This document shows positions 5,071 through 58,330 of a DNA stretch of 64,000 nt, in pieces. Below the pieces are notes generated by a model. The model was not told where the DNA came from. It made no database searches and was given only the letters and a program-made list of their open reading frames with translations. The stretch's first letter is position 1, and the number at the start of each line of letters is the position of its first letter. The translations under genes were made by a program, and so were the position numbers. This DNA is from Thiorhodococcus drewsii AZ1 (GTDB taxonomy: Bacteria > Pseudomonadota > Gammaproteobacteria > Chromatiales > Chromatiaceae). The stretch spans positions 62,001-126,000 of the forward strand of contig NZ_AFWT01000008.1 of assembly GCF_000224065.1 (NCBI RefSeq). Reading direction: 5' to 3'.

Positions 5071-7668
<2,598 letters not shown>

Positions 7669-42262: not shown

Positions 42263-45200
42263 TCAGAAAGCGAAATCGACGCCCGAAGTAAATCCGACAT
42301 TGGAGTAGTCGTCGCCAGCGCTGACATATAGAGCGGCTTTGACCATCGCGTTTTTGGTCAGTTTGTAGGAGAGACCCGCCGTCATTCTGGCCTCTGGGCC
42401 ATCCGCCGAGCGACCCTCCAAGGTGCCGTGGCTACCGTCATCGTACGCGTAGGCGATGTCGGAGTTGTCGAGATCCAGGTGTTGGAACAGATCCAGGCTG
42501 AGCGAGGGTGCCACTCGCTTGAGCGTGGGTGTAACAGACGCCGTTGCGCCGATGCCGAGGCGCAGCCGCTCGTAATGGCGTCCGCCAAACCGTGCCGGAA
42601 TGCCGAGTTCGCTGGCCTCGGTGAACGCGGACTCGCTGCCGCGCATGTAGGTCAGATTGGCGAGCCAGTTCCAGTTCCAGCCCCGCACGACCGTGGTGCG
42701 CGAGACTTCCATTCCCAGGATCCAACGCTCGTGATCGGTGTCTCCTGTTGCCATCGCGCTTCCCAGATCTCGCTGATAGTCGATATCGCCGAAACCGTAG
42801 GCAATGCCCAGACCGAGGTCGACGAGATCCAGATCCAGCTTGGCCGTGATGCCGATCATGGAGGTGTCGAGCTTTTGCTCCCGGTGCGTGTCGTCGATTT
42901 TGGCCTTTTCGGAGGTTTTGGCCAGAGAGATCGCCCAGACTCCACGCTCTCCGAGCGGGCCGCTGAGGCCGGCCAACATGCCGCCGATCCGGATGTCATA
43001 GCCGGATACGCCATCCGCGTCGTCGAATGAGAACTCGTCTCCGAGCGCGGAGACGACGAATCCGGACAGCTGTTTCTGTTGCTTGGCGGAGGTAGTTCGT
43101 GCGAACGTCAAGACGCTATCCATGACGGCAAGCGAGCTTCGATACGCCGTTTCGGCGGTCCCGTCGAAGATGGCAGGGCTGGTGCTCGTCAGCGTCACCG
43201 CGCTGGATGAACTCAGCACATCCAGCGCGGTGCGGCTGGAAGCGGCGCTCATCCCGTCGGGATCTTCAACCCTGGCGAAGCGACCGCTAACACCGTTGGC
43301 TGCCGTGAGGATCGGCAACTGCACGTCTCCCTTGAGCGCGCTTCCCTTCAATCGCAGCGTTCCATTGCCGAGGATCGCCACTCCTGTGTCCGCGACCGCG
43401 TAGTTCTCGACGGTTGCGGTTTGCTCGACGACCGACAAGAGGTCCGCTCGGCTCGAAGCACCATCGACATCGATCTCTAGGACCCCATCGGCGGCCTCGT
43501 AGCGCGTGACGGTCAGCGTCCCAAGCGTGTCGCGGTCACCAGGAGTCATGGTGCCGGAACCGGAGACGAGCCCGTTGATGCGTCCGTTGCCGGACAGACG
43601 CGAGGCCGCTCCTGTGGAGACATCTCCCGTGAGGATCCCGTTGACGGTGAGTCGGTCGGATCCCCGGGTGATGTCGATACCGCCGCTCACGCTGCCCGTG
43701 GGGCCTATGTCGATCGTATCGTTCGATGGGGCGCTGGCGTCGATTGCGATCGTATTGGCTCCGATGGTCTCGATCTTGCCATCGACCTGTACGCTGTTTT
43801 CGGTGCCTTCGAGCCGGATCAGGGTCAGATCGTTGCCATAACCTTTCAGAATCCCTTGATCTTCGATCCTGATCGAGCCATTGGTCATGCGTGTGGCGGT
43901 CGTGTCTTGGCCGTAGAAGACATAGGTGGGCACGGGCGCGTCGAAGCCGATTTCAGGGCTCACCCAGCGGTATCCCGAAGGTTGGACCGTGAAAGCAGTC
44001 GTCATGTTGCGCTGTTGATCCGCAACCGTGGTGCCCCGACAGAGGGTGCCGCTGTCCGAGGTCGAGCAACCGTTCGGATCCCTCACAAAGGCATCGAAAA
44101 TGGCGACCGTCTCCTGCAGATCGTAAAAATAGTCGTTGATGTCGGCTGGCGTGAACTGGCGGTTGCCAGGAAAGCTCAGGAAGGTATTGAGATCCGATAC
44201 GATGAAGAGATCGTCCGCCGTGGTGTCGGGGTCGCCGGGGAAATGGAACATCAGGGTCTGATAGCCGCTCAGCTCGCCACCGTGACCCAGCATGAAGACG
44301 CCGGTCTCGGTACTGTGCTGGCCATAGATCGCAAAGCCGTAGCCGCCTTCGATGATGCCGACCTCGCCATTCATGATGTTTGTGTTCTTTAGTCGCTCTG
44401 CAAAGACTGCCGGGGCCAGGGTGCCATTGCGGTTCGTTGTCAGCTCGATGAGCCAATCCAGTTGGTCATGAACATTCGAGATCATGGCGCCGGCCGAGTT
44501 GGGCACCGAGGGGGTCGTGAAGGTGAAGTCCGTCAGCGCGCCGTATGTATTCCATGTCCCGTTCGTATGCTGGTCGGATCCCCACTCGGTGCCGGTGGGA
44601 TACAGCGTATTGGTCAGACCCAGCGGCTCGATCACACGCTCGGTGATCAGTTCGCGGATGGTTCTGCAGTTTCCTGTCTCGCAGCTGGCCGCCTCGGCGA
44701 TAATGCCTGCCAGCGTGAAATTGGTATTGGAGTACTCAAAGGTTCCTTGATCTCCTGGTGTCATCGTCGATCCTTCGGCGAGAGCTGCAGCGATCAATTG
44801 GGCGCGCGCCAAGTCGTAGTCGCCATTCTTGGCATTCCATGTATCCAGAATGGTTGCGCCTGGGTGGTTCGGGTCCTCGCCTGACAGATATTCCGCGATT
44901 CCGCTGCGCATCGAGATGAGGTCGCGAACGGTGAAGGTCTCGCGCTGCTGCTGGCTCATGACGCTTAGGGCCTGTGTCGCGGCGGGTTGGCGCACGTACC
45001 ATTCCTGTAGCGTATCGTCCAGGCCAATCACACCCTCTCCGACGAATTGGAGCACCACGGTCCCGGTATAGGTCTTGGTCTGACTACCGATGTGAAAGCG
45101 GTCGTCGACCGTCAAGGCCCGTCCGCCCTGGGACGCCGTAGCCGGGCCTGTCGTCCCTGTCGCATGGGTCCAGCGGCCTCCGTTTCCGAACTCCATCCCA

Positions 45201-45358
45201 GAGACCACCCCGTAGAAACCATGCTGTCCGACCAGCGCGTCTTGGGTGATGTCCAGGTAGCGGGAGAGCGCTTCGACGTCCTGGGCTTCAGCTCCGCCGC
45301 ACATCGCCAGTGTCAAGGCTGTCGCGAGTGCTTTGCGTGTGTCATGAGTGCCGTTCAT
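42263..45358 (-). CDS. Autotransporter with beta-lactamase-fold serine hydrolase passenger
   Basis: A 1031-residue secreted protein. Signal peptide (about 1-25, ALATALTLAMCGGAEA), then a passenger of the class C beta-lactamase / D-Ala-D-Ala carboxypeptidase family: SQTK at 92-95, YSN at 209-211, HGG at 359-361. A repetitive beta-rich stalk (about 500-740; NSVQVDGKIETIGANTIAID, GSVSGGIDITRGSDRLTVNG) leads to a C-terminal autotransporter barrel (about 765-1031) ending in Phe. It should display or release an esterase, peptidase or lactamase at the cell surface. Base composition seems somewhat lower in GC than neighbours. Upstream of it on the same strand is another beta-barrel protein. Confidence 0.85.
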   Translation of the reverse strand: MNGTHDTRKALATALTLAMCGGAEAQDVEALSRYLDITQDALVGQHGFYGVVSGMEFGNGGRWTHATGTTGPATASQGGRALTVDDRFHIGSQTKTYTGTVVLQFVGEGVIGLDDTLQEWYVRQPAATQALSVMSQQQRETFTVRDLISMRSGIAEYLSGEDPNHPGATILDTWNAKNGDYDLARAQLIAAALAEGSTMTPGDQGTFEYSNTNFTLAGIIAEAASCETGNCRTIRELITERVIEPLGLTNTLYPTGTEWGSDQHTNGTWNTYGALTDFTFTTPSVPNSAGAMISNVHDQLDWLIELTTNRNGTLAPAVFAERLKNTNIMNGEVGIIEGGYGFAIYGQHSTETGVFMLGHGGELSGYQTLMFHFPGDPDTTADDLFIVSDLNTFLSFPGNRQFTPADINDYFYDLQETVAIFDAFVRDPNGCSTSDSGTLCRGTTVADQQRNMTTAFTVQPSGYRWVSPEIGFDAPVPTYVFYGQDTTATRMTNGSIRIEDQGILKGYGNDLTLIRLEGTENSVQVDGKIETIGANTIAIDASAPSNDTIDIGPTGSVSGGIDITRGSDRLTVNGILTGDVSTGAASRLSGNGRINGLVSGSGTMTPGDRDTLGTLTVTRYEAADGVLEIDVDGASSRADLLSVVEQTATVENYAVADTGVAILGNGTLRLKGSALKGDVQLPILTAANGVSGRFARVEDPDGMSAASSRTALDVLSSSSAVTLTSTSPAIFDGTAETAYRSSLAVMDSVLTFARTTSAKQQKQLSGFVVSALGDEFSFDDADGVSGYDIRIGGMLAGLSGPLGERGVWAISLAKTSEKAKIDDTHREQKLDTSMIGITAKLDLDLVDLGLGIAYGFGDIDYQRDLGSAMATGDTDHERWILGMEVSRTTVVRGWNWNWLANLTYMRGSESAFTEASELGIPARFGGRHYERLRLGIGATASVTPTLKRVAPSLSLDLFQHLDLDNSDIAYAYDDGSHGTLEGRSADGPEARMTAGLSYKLTKNAMVKAALYVSAGDDYSNVGFTSGVDFAF

Positions 45359-53337: not shown

Positions 53338-56300
53338 TTAGGCCGCGAAGGCGCAGATGAGGTTGTAGCAGACGTGAACGTCCTCGGACATGTCGAGGAA
53401 GTTCATGGTCCGTGCCCGCCAGCCCCTGTAGTCGAACCCCTGGTCGAGATGATCCATGTTGCGGAATCCCATGCTCCAGTCGCTGAAGATGCGCTTGTCG
53501 ATTCTGCCTTCGTAGAGACGGGTGACGTTTCGATGCCGAGGGTCGGCCTCGATGCGCTCCATCAGGCGCTGGATGCGTGGATAGCTGCCCTCGATCATCT
53601 GCATGAAGGAGCCGTTGAGATAGAGCAGGAATCCGGTGATGCCCTGGGCCCGGTTCGTCTCGCGCGCGAAGCCGAGCAGATCCATGAGGGCGTCCTGACT
53701 CATGGGCTGGGTCGCCAGGCTCACGTAGAGCACGGCATGGAGATCCTCGGGCATCGCTTTGCGTTCTTGCGCGTCGCTTTCGAGCAGTAAGGAAAGGAAT
53801 TCGGACGGCGGCAGGGGGCGGTGAAAGAAATAGCCCTGGACATAGTCGCATCCGATGTCGCGCAGATAGCCGTGCTGAGTTTCGTTCTCGACCCCCTCGG
53901 CGACCACCTGGAGCTGCATGGCGCGGGCCATGCTGCATACGGCCGAGACGATGGCCTTGCTGTCGTGCCGCTTGTCGAGCCCGTCGACGAATTCGCGGTC
54001 GATCTTGAGAAAGTTCACCGGCATGCGCAGCAACTGGGCCAGAGACGAATAGCCGGTGCCGAAGTCGTCCACGGCCACCCGCAGGCCCAGATCGGCTAGG
54101 CGGTGGAGCAGACGGAGATTCGAGGTGACGTCGCTCATCAGCGACGTCTCGGTCAGTTCGAGCAGGAGGCGGCTCGGGTCCGCCCCCGTGTCACGCAGGA
54201 TTTCGGAGAACGCCTCGACCACCGACTCGTCGTTGAGCTGACGTGCTGAGATGTTGACGCTGACATAGGGGGCCTGTTCGCCGAAGCGCGCGAACCAGTC
54301 GCGCTCGGCTTCGCAGGCGGCCTGGAACACCCATTTGCCGATCGGCACGATCGAGCCGCTCATCTCGGCGATGGGGATGAAGAGCGAGGGCGGGATCTCG
54401 CCTGTGGGAGGCATCCAGCGCAGCAACACCTCCGCCCCTCGGATGATCTGGCTCTCGGTGCAGAGGATGGGCTGGAACCGGATCTCCAATTCCGCGTTCT
54501 GGATTGCCTGGCGAAGTCCGTTACTGATGTCGAGCCGTTTGCGCGCCTGTTCGTGGATCTCCTCACTGAAAAAGCGCCAGCCGTCGCGTCCTTGCTCCTT
54601 GGCCGAATACATGGCCGTATCCGCGTTGCGCAGCAACTCCTCGGCGCAATGGGTGCGTCCGTGTCCAATGGCGAGTCCGATGCTCGCGGTGGCGAAGAGT
54701 TGCCGTCCCTGCAGGTCGAGCGGCTCGCGCAGCGCGTCGTTGAGCCGTTCGGCGAGGCTCACGATGGAGACGGAATCGTCGACCTGATCGCAGAGGACGA
54801 CGAATTCGTCCCCGCCGAGTCGGCCCACGGTATCTCCAGGTCGGACGTGCTCGACCAGCCGCGTGGCGATCCCTTGCAGCAACGCGTCTCCGACGCTGTG
54901 GCCGTGCGTGTCGTTGATGAGCTTGAATCCGTCGAGGTCGATGAAGAGCAGGGCGACCGCGTGGCCCTGTTTCTTCGAGCGGGCCAGGGCGTGCGCGAGA
55001 CGCTCCTGCATCAGATCGCGGTTCGGCAGCCCGGTCAGCGCGTCGTGCGAGGCGCGCCAGACCAGTTCGGTTTCGGCGGTCTTACGGTCGGTGATATCGC
55101 GCAGTGCCGCGACCAGGATTGTATCGCCGTCGGCGTCGAATCGGGAGATGGCGACCTCGACCGGAAAGAGCGAGCCGTCACCTCGATAACCGTGGACCTC
55201 GGTGCGCATGCCCATGCGTCGTTCGTTGTCGGCCTCTGCCTGGAAGCGCCGGATGTTGTCGGCGTGCCGGCGGCGCGCCTGGGGTGGAACCAGTTCGTGG
55301 ATGGAGAGCCCCAGCAGTGCGCCACCGGCGTAGCCGAACAGGTCGTTGGCCCGGTGGTTGGTCTCGATGATGGTGCCCGAGGAATCGGTGGCGATCACGG
55401 CGATGTCGGCCATGGCCAGGCACTCATAGGAGGCGATGGTCTGCTGGAGTCGGACCGCATGGGTGTCGACACAGCTCAGGATGTATCCGGGCCGCTCGGC
55501 GTGCAGATGTGGGCTGATCTCTCCGATGACCCTCAGCCGTTTGGGGGTGCCATCGGCGAGTCTGGCCGTGAGAGCGTCTTGCCATTCCGTGTGATGTTGG
55601 TGCCGAGTCATGAACTCGGCGAATGCCTCCGCTGACTGCCAGAGCGTTTCGACCGGGACGCCATGCAGTGTATGCCGTTCATCGAAGCCCCAGAGCCGCG
55701 AAGCGGCACGATTGACGAATGCGATCCTTCCATCCGCGTCGATGCCGATGACGGCGAACTCCGGCATGTTGTTCGCCCCCTGGGGCGGCGCTGTCTGGTC
55801 CTGGGCTGGGGCGAGTGGCTGTTGGTCTGTTGGCTCGGACGCGCTGGCTGGCTCTGGGATGGGGTCGAAGGATTGAATGATGCTGAAGGTGCCATCGAAC
55901 CTGCAGCGCGCCAGATGGGTGGCGAGACGGACGCGGTGGCTGACCGGGTCCATCCGCACTGGACCCTGTGGACCGTCCAGTTCGAGCCGCTCCAGCGCGC
56001 TGATGAGCGCGGAAGGCTCCAGGCTGCCGGCTTGCTCGGCGGCTCGGGCGAATCCTCTGACGCAGAGATAGGTGGACGCCCCGACTTTGGCAACGGGTGG
56101 CAGCGGGGTCTCGGTGTCCCCCAGTTGGTTGCCGAGTGCGGCCAGATAGGCCCGATTCGCCGGGTTATCCAGGCAGGTGAAATAGCTGCCGCAGGCAAAG
56201 ACGCCCTCGCGCACCTCGGGTGCGAGCCGTGCGGCGACCGATTCGTCGAGCCGGCTTGCCAGGACCGCGATACGCCGCTTCAGTCCGCGCCGGGTGAAGC

Positions 56301-56937
56301 GAGTCAGGAGCGCCGGGAGATCCTTGCGGTCGAAACAGGGCAGGAAGACATCGACGCCGGATCGCTCGACGTGATCTAGGAGCGTTTCCATCTGCACCCC
56401 ATCCAGATCCAGATGTTCGGTCGAGACCAGCTCGCCGCCGATCGCCTCCAGCGCCCGGGACGCGGCCTCCGTCGTGCCGCACGACCAGGCATCCCGGCCG
56501 CCAGCGATGAAGAATTTCGGACCGGCGATCCGGGCCATGCGCTCAAGCACGGGTGTGACGTTGTGCACGGGCAGGGGGGTGAATCGAAAGACCTCCTGCG
56601 ATGCCTCGTCGAGGGTTGCGCCATGGTCGAGCGCGATGCGTGGACGGCTCGGCGCGACCGAAGTGCTTGGGTTCCCGATCAGCGCGTCGCAGCCGAGCAC
56701 CTCGGTCAGGTGTCGGGTTGCCGCTTCAAGCCCGAGGGTCGGTGCTGCTTCGATCAGTTCGATCGGACGCCCGAGGAGACCGCCTGCGGCGTTGAGTTCG
56801 GTGCAGGCCGCCTGCGCCGAGATGCGGATTTTACCGAGCTGGCGGGCATCCACGACCTTTGCGGATGGAAGGAGACCCAGTCTGATCGGCTGTGGCGGGC
56901 CGCTTTCGATCGGACTCAGTGGTTTGCTCGATGACAC
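53338..56937 (-). CDS. Binding-protein-like/PAS/PAS/GGDEF/EAL/BLUF photosensory c-di-GMP protein
   Basis: A 1199-residue soluble protein with no signal peptide or membrane segment. Residues 15-370 resemble type I periplasmic-binding proteins of the AmiC / branched-chain amino acid family (IRLGLLPSAKV, GCDALIGNPSTSV, VFRFTPLPVHNV). Then PAS (about 395-510), PAS (about 515-640), GGDEF (RLGGDEF, about 645-810), EAL (GAEVLLRW, DDFGTGYSSL, KIDREFV, about 820-1060) and a C-terminal BLUF domain (1066-1199). The BLUF flavin residues are in place: Tyr 1071, Asn 1095, Gln 1113, Trp 1154, Met 1156. EVLLR still fits the ExLxR metal-ligand consensus, so phosphodiesterase activity is plausible. Blue light should tune c-di-GMP; the binding-protein domain may be a cytoplasmic small-molecule sensor. 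Confidence 0.88.
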   Translation of the reverse strand: MSSSKPLSPIESGPPQPIRLGLLPSAKVVDARQLGKIRISAQAACTELNAAGGLLGRPIELIEAAPTLGLEAATRHLTEVLGCDALIGNPSTSVAPSRPRIALDHGATLDEASQEVFRFTPLPVHNVTPVLERMARIAGPKFFIAGGRDAWSCGTTEAASRALEAIGGELVSTEHLDLDGVQMETLLDHVERSGVDVFLPCFDRKDLPALLTRFTRRGLKRRIAVLASRLDESVAARLAPEVREGVFACGSYFTCLDNPANRAYLAALGNQLGDTETPLPPVAKVGASTYLCVRGFARAAEQAGSLEPSALISALERLELDGPQGPVRMDPVSHRVRLATHLARCRFDGTFSIIQSFDPIPEPASASEPTDQQPLAPAQDQTAPPQGANNMPEFAVIGIDADGRIAFVNRAASRLWGFDERHTLHGVPVETLWQSAEAFAEFMTRHQHHTEWQDALTARLADGTPKRLRVIGEISPHLHAERPGYILSCVDTHAVRLQQTIASYECLAMADIAVIATDSSGTIIETNHRANDLFGYAGGALLGLSIHELVPPQARRRHADNIRRFQAEADNERRMGMRTEVHGYRGDGSLFPVEVAISRFDADGDTILVAALRDITDRKTAETELVWRASHDALTGLPNRDLMQERLAHALARSKKQGHAVALLFIDLDGFKLINDTHGHSVGDALLQGIATRLVEHVRPGDTVGRLGGDEFVVLCDQVDDSVSIVSLAERLNDALREPLDLQGRQLFATASIGLAIGHGRTHCAEELLRNADTAMYSAKEQGRDGWRFFSEEIHEQARKRLDISNGLRQAIQNAELEIRFQPILCTESQIIRGAEVLLRWMPPTGEIPPSLFIPIAEMSGSIVPIGKWVFQAACEAERDWFARFGEQAPYVSVNISARQLNDESVVEAFSEILRDTGADPSRLLLELTETSLMSDVTSNLRLLHRLADLGLRVAVDDFGTGYSSLAQLLRMPVNFLKIDREFVDGLDKRHDSKAIVSAVCSMARAMQLQVVAEGVENETQHGYLRDIGCDYVQGYFFHRPLPPSEFLSLLLESDAQERKAMPEDLHAVLYVSLATQPMSQDALMDLLGFARETNRAQGITGFLLYLNGSFMQMIEGSYPRIQRLMERIEADPRHRNVTRLYEGRIDKRIFSDWSMGFRNMDHLDQGFDYRGWRARTMNFLDMSEDVHVCYNLICAFAA

Positions 56938-56979: not shown

Positions 56980-57651
56980 CTAGCGTTGATCCGAGAATCC
57001 GGTGAGTTCCCACAGCCGATCCAGCTCGTCGCGTAACGTGGCGACCTCGGCTTCCAGCGCCGCGACGCGATCCTCCGCGTGCGTCGTTCTAGACGTCTGT
57101 CGGTTCGGCGCGGGTGCGTCCTGGGCTTCCGGCTCGGGATGTCCGCACAGCAGATGGGCATAGCGCTCCTCGCGTTTTCCAGGTAGGCGGGGCAGTTCGG
57201 TGACGAGCGCACGCTCATGCCCAGACAGTCCCTGGACCGTTTTGGCGACGCCCTCCAGATCGGTGAAATCGGCCATGCGGGCGCAATTGACGCGCAGTTC
57301 GCCCAGGGTCTGCGGCCCGCGTAGCAGCAGGACGCAGAGCACGGCCTGTTCCTCGCGGCTGAGAAAATAGGTGCCGACCATCTTGTGGTCGTAACGCTCG
57401 GTCCGTCCGTTGGAGCTTTCATGGACCAGGCCCCGGTCGCGTAGCCGATTGACCGTGTTCCCGACCTCGCCCTGGGTCAGATGCATGACCGGGTGACGGG
57501 CCGTCTTCTGATTGCAGGCGCTGACGAGACCGTTGAGTGTGAGCGGGTACTGATCCGGGGTCGTACGCTGCTTCTCCATCAGACAACCGATGACACGCGC
57601 TTCGAGTGGCGTCAGCTGAGCGGTCGAGCTGGATGAGTCGTCTTGGGGCAT
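56980..57651 (-). CDS. YceH (DUF480) family protein
   Basis: A 223-residue protein with tandem winged-helix domains. LTPLEARVIGCLMEKQRTTPDQYPLTLNGLVSACNQK is the DUF480 signature; VLLLRGPQTLGELRVN and ELPRLPGKREERYAHLL follow. A C-terminal coiled coil (EDRVAALEAEVATLRDELDRL). Role unknown. Start at 57651 chosen because it precedes the conserved domain closely; the in-frame extension upstream overlaps the phosphatase gene. It ends 43 bases before the BLUF protein start. Confidence 0.88.
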   Translation of the reverse strand: MPQDDSSSSTAQLTPLEARVIGCLMEKQRTTPDQYPLTLNGLVSACNQKTARHPVMHLTQGEVGNTVNRLRDRGLVHESSNGRTERYDHKMVGTYFLSREEQAVLCVLLLRGPQTLGELRVNCARMADFTDLEGVAKTVQGLSGHERALVTELPRLPGKREERYAHLLCGHPEPEAQDAPAPNRQTSRTTHAEDRVAALEAEVATLRDELDRLWELTGFSDQR

Positions 57652-57718
57652 GGTTTCGCCTGTTCGTTGAGAGTCGATGGGGCTGGAGACGGGATCTTCA
57701 CGCGGAATGCCGGTCGAG

Positions 57719-58330
57719 TCACGGATGCTTGGACTGGTCGCATGCCTGGAACCCGCCATCGGCGTGCGGCTCGATCCAGAGACATTCGCCATTCTTGCGC
57801 TTCATATCGAGAACGGTGGTTCGTGGCAATCCCATGACCTCGCGTGTGATGACGTCCATGACCCAGCCGTGGGTGATGACCAGTATATGGGTGCCGACGT
57901 GGTCGCAAGCGATGGCGTTCAATGCATTCATTACCCTGTTTGCGAAGGGGTCGAGCGCCTCGCCGTCTTCGAAGTCGCAGCAGGGATTGCGGCGTGCGAT
58001 CTCCTCGTGCAATCCGGGATGGGTCAGCGACAGCTCCTGCTTCGGCATGCCCTGGATGTGCCCGAAATGGCGTTCCTTGAGACCCGGATAATAGTGCGGC
58101 GGACCCAGGCCCCAGGTCGCGGCGATGATCTCGGCGGTCTCGGCCGCCCGTTTCAGCGGGCTGGAGCAGATGTGCGAGAACGGGTGACGGGCGAGCTGTT
58201 GGGCGAGCTCGCGCGATTGCGCTCGTCCTCGCTCGTTGAGCGGGACGTCGGTCCAGCCTTGCAGAATGCCGGTAAGGTTCCAGTCGGTCTCGCCGTGACG
58301 GCTGATGCACAAACGTGTCGTATCGCTCAT
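57719..58330 (-). CDS. Histidine phosphatase / phosphoglycerate mutase family
   Basis: A 203-residue enzyme. LCISRHGETDWNLTGILQGWTDVPLNERG supplies the phosphohistidine RHG and conserved Arg; SSPLKRAAETAEI and VITHGWVMDV the second His. Family members dephosphorylate sugar phosphates or alpha-ribazole phosphate. Overlaps the end of tmcA by 4 bases, so it is coupled to it. Confidence 0.88.
   Translation of the reverse strand: MSDTTRLCISRHGETDWNLTGILQGWTDVPLNERGRAQSRELAQQLARHPFSHICSSPLKRAAETAEIIAATWGLGPPHYYPGLKERHFGHIQGMPKQELSLTHPGLHEEIARRNPCCDFEDGEALDPFANRVMNALNAIACDHVGTHILVITHGWVMDVITREVMGLPRTTVLDMKRKNGECLWIEPHADGGFQACDQSKHP

Follow-up and report, generated by a model that had tools for sequence, protein, structure and literature searches.

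Which signals converge on a long photosensor protein of Thiorhodococcus drewsii AZ1, and is this protein of a new kind? The gene lies on the minus strand at 53338..56937 of a 64,000-nucleotide stretch of the genome (the window), and a preliminary description made from the letters of this stretch had presented its product as a BLUF photosensor fused to a binding-protein-like domain and to the GGDEF and EAL modules of cyclic di-GMP (c-di-GMP) metabolism. We found that the protein is a relative of BldP, and so of a known kind, in a variant whose ligand domain is probably disarmed. The reading that we regard as likely, judging from sequence, is a BldP-family phosphodiesterase tuned by light and probably by oxygen in which a third sensor has eroded, its activity, light response and cofactors all being predicted.

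An intact multidomain protein in the window

The whole gene forms one uninterrupted frame of 1199 codons from a GTG start at 56937 to a stop ending at 53338, which rules out a decayed frame, and the plus strand of the same interval, when checked for a frame, was not open. The stop-to-stop frame has 1213 codons and thus leaves at most 14 codons ahead of the GTG; with so few codons available and an N-terminus that is polar as judged by eye, a signal peptide is not plausible. We propose that the gene encodes a cytoplasmic c-di-GMP phosphodiesterase of the BldP family.

Domains were called by a Pfam scan of the 1199-residue protein, and all of them lie on the minus strand. A type I binding-protein domain of the AmiC/UrtA type occupies residues 17–362 (55852..56889; Peripla_BP_6 at residues 37–349, E = 2.2e-39), followed by a weak first PAS at about residues 390–470 (55528..55770; match at ~395–458), a second PAS at about residues 505–620 (55078..55425; PAS_9 at 513–617, 1.8e-21), a GGDEF domain at 629–785 (54583..55053; 1.1e-47), an EAL domain at 808–1041 (53815..54516; 5.2e-67), a BLUF domain at 1066–1157 (53467..53742; 3.8e-27) and a C-terminal tail at 1158–1199 (53341..53466) that is partly helical in the structure model. 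The preliminary description had anticipated most of this, and the domain search that it suggested agrees with it on the single long frame without a signal peptide, the binding-protein-like domain (Peripla_BP_6 in Pfam, with an AmiC/UrtA-type fold in the model), the intact GGDEF motif, the EAL motif that reads EVL, and the BLUF domain with Tyr1071, Asn1095, Gln1113 and Trp1154. Of the two PAS domains that it had named, the second is clear and the first falls just short of the PAS_7 cut-off (26.9 bits versus 27); the PAS_9 and PAS profiles each give two stretches at 0.001.

The architecture is that of BldP and is widespread

The preliminary description knew the full architecture from no other protein, a claim that the genomes overturn. 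Searching 146 genomes of the same taxonomic family with the binding domain yielded 17 other frames of 1101–1312 codons with 34–46% identity, the weaker matches being mostly in shorter frames. A BLUF search placed a BLUF domain within these 17 frames, and Pfam identified binding protein, PAS, GGDEF, EAL and BLUF in all 18 members, the window copy included. Across all 210 genomes of the family there are at least 22 genes in 20 genomes with a binding domain at E 1e-40 or better (a lower bound, as a part of the first-look candidates was scored in each genome), and the four added genes carry every part according to our own profiles, so that the full architecture is present in 22 of 22. A wider scan, over named genomes, gave 166 pattern matches, of which 158 code for relatives of the window binding domain. 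Among the best 80 of these 158 loci, which were found with two short patterns, profiles built from the 18 members recovered the order PBP-PAS-GGDEF-EAL-BLUF (PBP, binding protein) in 42, of which 7 duplicate the 22 family genes and 35 are additional; EAL without BLUF was found in 18 (2 cut by a contig end) and a frame without EAL in 20 (3 cut by a contig end). The complete order is also present in Gallionella, Magnetospirillum, Methylomonas and Desulfamplus. These counts rule out an architecture unknown elsewhere. Nor is there support for the idea that a distant domain has taken the place of the N-terminal one: every match at 1e-40 or better in the 210 genomes belongs to the same protein family (34–46% identity), and a domain-order search over the same genomes had the same outcome.

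The binding domain also occurs in frames without EAL (e.g., L110, L111, L116, L118, L119, L122, L144 and L145), some of them short; in the long frames, other outputs are presumably present. A BLUF-GGDEF/EAL protein has been listed in Methylomicrobium alcaliphilum (PMC4844311), and domains of the binding-protein clan are described as common in GGDEF/EAL proteins, with SBP_bac_3 being the only one studied there (PMC8846402).

The link to BldP comes from two loci. The window protein and L038 share 56% identity over their alignment, and the evidence suggests that this locus belongs to Allochromatium vinosum DSM 180. Its genome holds two BLUF genes, of 1150 versus 261 codons, and because only the 1150-codon frame fits EAL plus BLUF, L038 is the BldP candidate of A. 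vinosum. L186, which we take to be the candidate of Magnetococcus marinus MC-1, has the architecture PBP-PAS-GGDEF-EAL-BLUF. Table 1 of a review lists BldP of both A. vinosum and M. marinus as a BLUF protein with flavin adenine dinucleotide (FAD), phosphodiesterase activity and a positive response to blue light, and names BldP as the source of the optogenetic tool EB1 (PMC8846402), which has been put to use (PMC8892541).

The ligand pocket of the N-terminal domain is mostly lost in the window copy

Matches to PDB sequences and a Foldseek search with the binding-domain model, in which AmiC and urea binders rank first, support the AmiC-type N-terminal domain of the preliminary description. A second look with VIA returned two aromatic-acid binders (Z of 38.0, with a root-mean-square deviation (rmsd) of 3.0 and 342 aligned, and Z of 37.9), a urea binder (37.5) and AmiC (36.9). 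Because the aromatic-acid binders, the urea binder and AmiC tie structurally, the fold does not fix the ligand.

The pocket was compared with that of UrtA, in which Ser122, Gln144, Tyr190 and Asn246 are given as the residues that hydrogen-bond urea (PMC10392092). Their equivalents were read from the alignment with a worked-out offset of 23, and conservation was counted in 50 relatives, 16 of them drawn from the 17 family members and 34 from the 80 wider loci, of which some lack BLUF. These relatives carry Ser in 47, Phe in 50, Tyr in 47 and Ala in 46 at the four positions. Two of the four residues thus differ in most relatives, which makes urea unlikely as the family ligand, and the conserved pocket presumably binds a small molecule in most of them. 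The window copy has a gap, Leu, Asp and Asp at the same positions, and the urea contacts are lost. In the window protein, 9 residues are missing from the stretch that holds the equivalents of Ser122 and YEG, with the Ser in the gap, Tyr changed to Asp, Gly to Ala, and Glu kept; the Tyr190 equivalent, Asp149, lies in an ungapped stretch beside a Trp that is kept. Overall, of the 157 columns conserved in the 50 relatives, the window copy retains 71, compared with 115 in the family member next above it and 54–58 in three transporter-type outgroup domains. Sensing of a small molecule, as proposed in the preliminary description, accords with the pocket kept in most relatives and is doubtful in the window copy, because substitutions or gaps affect most of its pocket residues and the binding domain has diverged in excess; for this copy the ligand proposal probably fails.

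The excess divergence is specific to the binding domain. Of 71 proteins (the 18 family members plus wider loci of more than 1050 residues, minus six duplicates), we used the 54 in which all four domains are present. The window binding domain is the most distant of the 54 (mean of 2.14 versus a median of means of 0.84), and its GGDEF, EAL and BLUF domains rank 43rd, 36th and 42nd in distance. On one fixed tree, the window tip measures 1.745 for the binding domain versus 0.264 for GGDEF, EAL and BLUF together, and the tree-length-normalized tip ratio is 6.74, with the next at 2.45 and a median of 1.0 (48 of the 54 tips, after dropping those whose C-terminal branch did not exceed 0.03). Pairwise rate ratios point in the same direction (window median of 2.10 versus 0.74 for other pairs), and codon-position composition gives a weak hint of relaxed constraint.

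The C-terminal tree groups the window protein with L046, L050 and L051 (support of 0.78), and these also lack the pocket Ser and Tyr, having Ala and Gln instead. In the same-genus genome G049, a binding-domain search gave no match. The corresponding locus there contains a gene resembling DUF480 (by eye), one of the DUF29 type and a third that is 95% identical to the window parE-like protein, and no bldP separates these genes. As in the window, the bldP-family gene of L039, L040 and L041 has a parE-like neighbor; in L050 and L051 the distance to such a gene is 1.3–1.6 kb (parE identified by eye). Because this parE-like neighborhood is common to all these loci, it is likelier that the gene was lost in G049 than gained in the window; together with the missing Ser and Tyr in the sister group, this looks like a trend to loss. 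As a separate observation, genome G121 carries two BldP paralogues, L037 and L050, of which the copy near parE (L050) is without the pocket Ser and Tyr and L037 is not among the pocket deviants.

Several of our results weigh against erosion. The gap placement in the shortened stretch is uncertain, and an alternative places Thr92 at the Ser122 position; 71 conserved columns are still kept; the domain is still predicted to fold, with a predicted local distance difference test (pLDDT) score of 88.7; and the window pairwise ratios of 1.54–4.16 overlap the extreme of the other pairs (95th percentile of 1.36, maximum of 2.22). The N-terminal domain may thus have altered its specificity such that blue light is integrated with a different small molecule, which we think rather unlikely. 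An intact frame, a confident fold prediction and the retained columns would suit such a change, a long tip is by itself compatible with adaptation as well as with relaxation, and the structural tie among binders leaves the ligand unfixed. However, the relatives' alignment helped the model, which hence leans to their fold, and residues 91–110 are among its lowest-confidence stretches. The shortened stretch, the Asp149 replacement and the trend to loss among the nearest relatives also argue against a new specificity. We therefore prefer erosion, with the N-terminal domain, its pocket mostly lost, most likely persisting as a structural remnant.

A probable heme sensor in the second PAS domain

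The preliminary description had missed that the second PAS is of the FixL/DosP type and has a heme histidine. By sequence, its closest solved relatives are the heme PAS of FixL and then that of DosP. His558 (55264..55266, minus strand), the predicted heme ligand, lies in a helix (58–73 of the PAS fold in the structure model), aligns with the FixL histidine and is kept in all 54 members. The equivalent residue is also kept in 10 of 10 proteins among the 18 relatives without BLUF, the count covering those longer than 1050 residues. A histidine in helix F-alpha is described as the primary determinant of heme binding (PMC10468136), and we infer that His558 marks heme in BldP proteins. The second PAS, which adjoins GGDEF, probably binds heme and would make the response oxygen-dependent. 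A conserved Arg that lies one position off the FixL/DosP Arg (by eye) speaks against a site of exactly this type, so the distal side may differ.

Among the titles and abstract openings listed, we found no description of BldP that mentions a heme PAS or a binding-protein domain; the original BldP paper may describe both. Light activation of BldP reportedly depends on oxygen. Should the second PAS prove to be a heme sensor, this dependence would have a reason that is testable at the level of residues. Of the leads from this locus, the prediction of a heme PAS is the most useful.

Output is predicted to be phosphodiesterase activity under blue light

The BLUF residues Tyr1071, Ser1073, Asn1095, Gln1113 and Trp1154 are present in 54 of 54 members and Met1156 in 52. 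We modeled residues 495–1199 (pLDDT of 86.4, predicted template modeling score (pTM) of 0.52), and the model matches PAS-GGDEF-EAL proteins, among them PA0861 and DosP, along the chain, with the domain arrangement unmatched (template modeling (TM) score of 0.36–0.41). The BLUF assignment rests on sequence: VIA-align rows for this model contain no BLUF chain, and since they are mostly EAL structures and cover 136–564, they barely probe BLUF. In the mechanism that we propose, blue light would be absorbed by flavin in the C-terminal BLUF, which would switch the adjoining EAL domain and lower c-di-GMP. As the preliminary description remarked, a BLUF domain adjoining c-di-GMP enzymes suits a phototroph, and the sequence supports this, with two adjacent photosynthetic reaction-centre genes in the window genome.

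The tested catalytic positions of EAL (E836, N895, E927, D957, D958, E1014 and Q1034) are invariant in 54 of 54, the window included. With the motif itself varying (ELL in 37, EAL in 8, ESL in 5, EVL in 3 and EML in 1), a degenerate EAL can be ruled out as an interpretation of EVL. The GGDEF motif at 708–712 and the RxxD I-site at 699–702 (RPGD) are intact in the window, and the GGDEF domain may be active or regulatory. An intact GGDEF makes a net cyclase output possible and is thus a further point against our interpretation, and most relatives keep the closing DEF, with RPGD at the I-site in 48 of 54. We nevertheless consider a light-controlled diguanylate cyclase, with c-di-GMP synthesis as its net output, improbable. 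Phosphodiesterase output is favored because the EAL positions are invariant, the GGDEF motif is variable (GGDEF in 22, AGDEF in 22, others in 10) and phosphodiesterase is the activity listed for the BldP of A. vinosum and for that of M. marinus (PMC8846402). Least credible, and very improbable in our view, is the unprecedented protein of the preliminary description that integrates light with an amide-like ligand, which agrees with the domain content and with the pocket motif kept in most relatives, but not with a widespread architecture, a characterized family that refutes novelty and a window pocket that is largely gone.

More tentatively, it is conceivable, though somewhat short of an even chance, that BldP proteins are three-input integrators in which a small molecule, oxygen (through the heme PAS) and blue light act on one phosphodiesterase, the window protein being a two-input version with its ligand sensor disarmed and its other modules constrained. 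The window copy is thereby a natural experiment that predicts light and oxygen control without a functional ligand domain.

Genomic surroundings

A DUF480 gene (56980..57792, minus strand) lies directly upstream of the bldP-family gene with 42 bases between them, and co-transcription of the two is a guess. Elsewhere in the window, 42263–45358 (minus strand) encodes a 1031-residue protein in which a beta-lactamase-family serine hydrolase (1e-30) is fused to an autotransporter beta-domain (4.9e-25). The window genome has a second BLUF gene (L053, 5215–5700), which encodes a short protein of 161 residues directly after two genes that resemble tldD and pmbA (by eye). Searched with the A. vinosum binding domain at E 0.001, the same genome gives a single further match, a stand-alone UrtA-like binding protein that, by eye, seems to start with a signal peptide (L187, 3706–5058).

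Comparison with known systems

AmiC and UrtA share with the window domain the type I binding-protein fold at about 20% identity. AmiC works in the cytoplasm. The window domain differs from both in being fused to PAS-GGDEF-EAL-BLUF and in having lost the urea-contact residues. DosP, the oxygen sensor of E. coli, is not known to have BLUF or a binding-protein domain; it resembles the window protein in its FixL/DosP-type PAS with a heme histidine and in GGDEF-EAL, and differs in overall arrangement (TM score of 0.39, rmsd of 16.1 over 678 Foldseek columns) and in the position of the PAS Arg, which in the window family is offset by one (by eye). In BlrP1, BLUF is N-terminal to EAL, whereas BLUF in the window protein stands behind EAL, with GGDEF, PAS and the binding-protein domain ahead; the two are alike in pairing BLUF with an EAL phosphodiesterase, which BLUF controls in BlrP1 of Klebsiella (PMC8846402).

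Closest is BldP of A. vinosum and M. marinus (Ryu et al. 2017, cited in PMC8846402), in which the domains follow the same order. All have a C-terminal EAL-BLUF in one polypeptide, the window protein is homologous over its whole length to both candidates, and it has the same BLUF, EAL and PAS-His residues. BldP is said to carry a C-terminal EAL-BLUF module, and the A. vinosum EAL-BLUF fragment alone is reportedly inactive. Two differences set the window protein apart. It has an extra first PAS relative to A. vinosum BldP, from which this domain is absent because the interval in L038 between the end of the binding domain (base 5134) and the start of the second-PAS stretch (5237) leaves no room for it, and its ligand pocket is degenerate.

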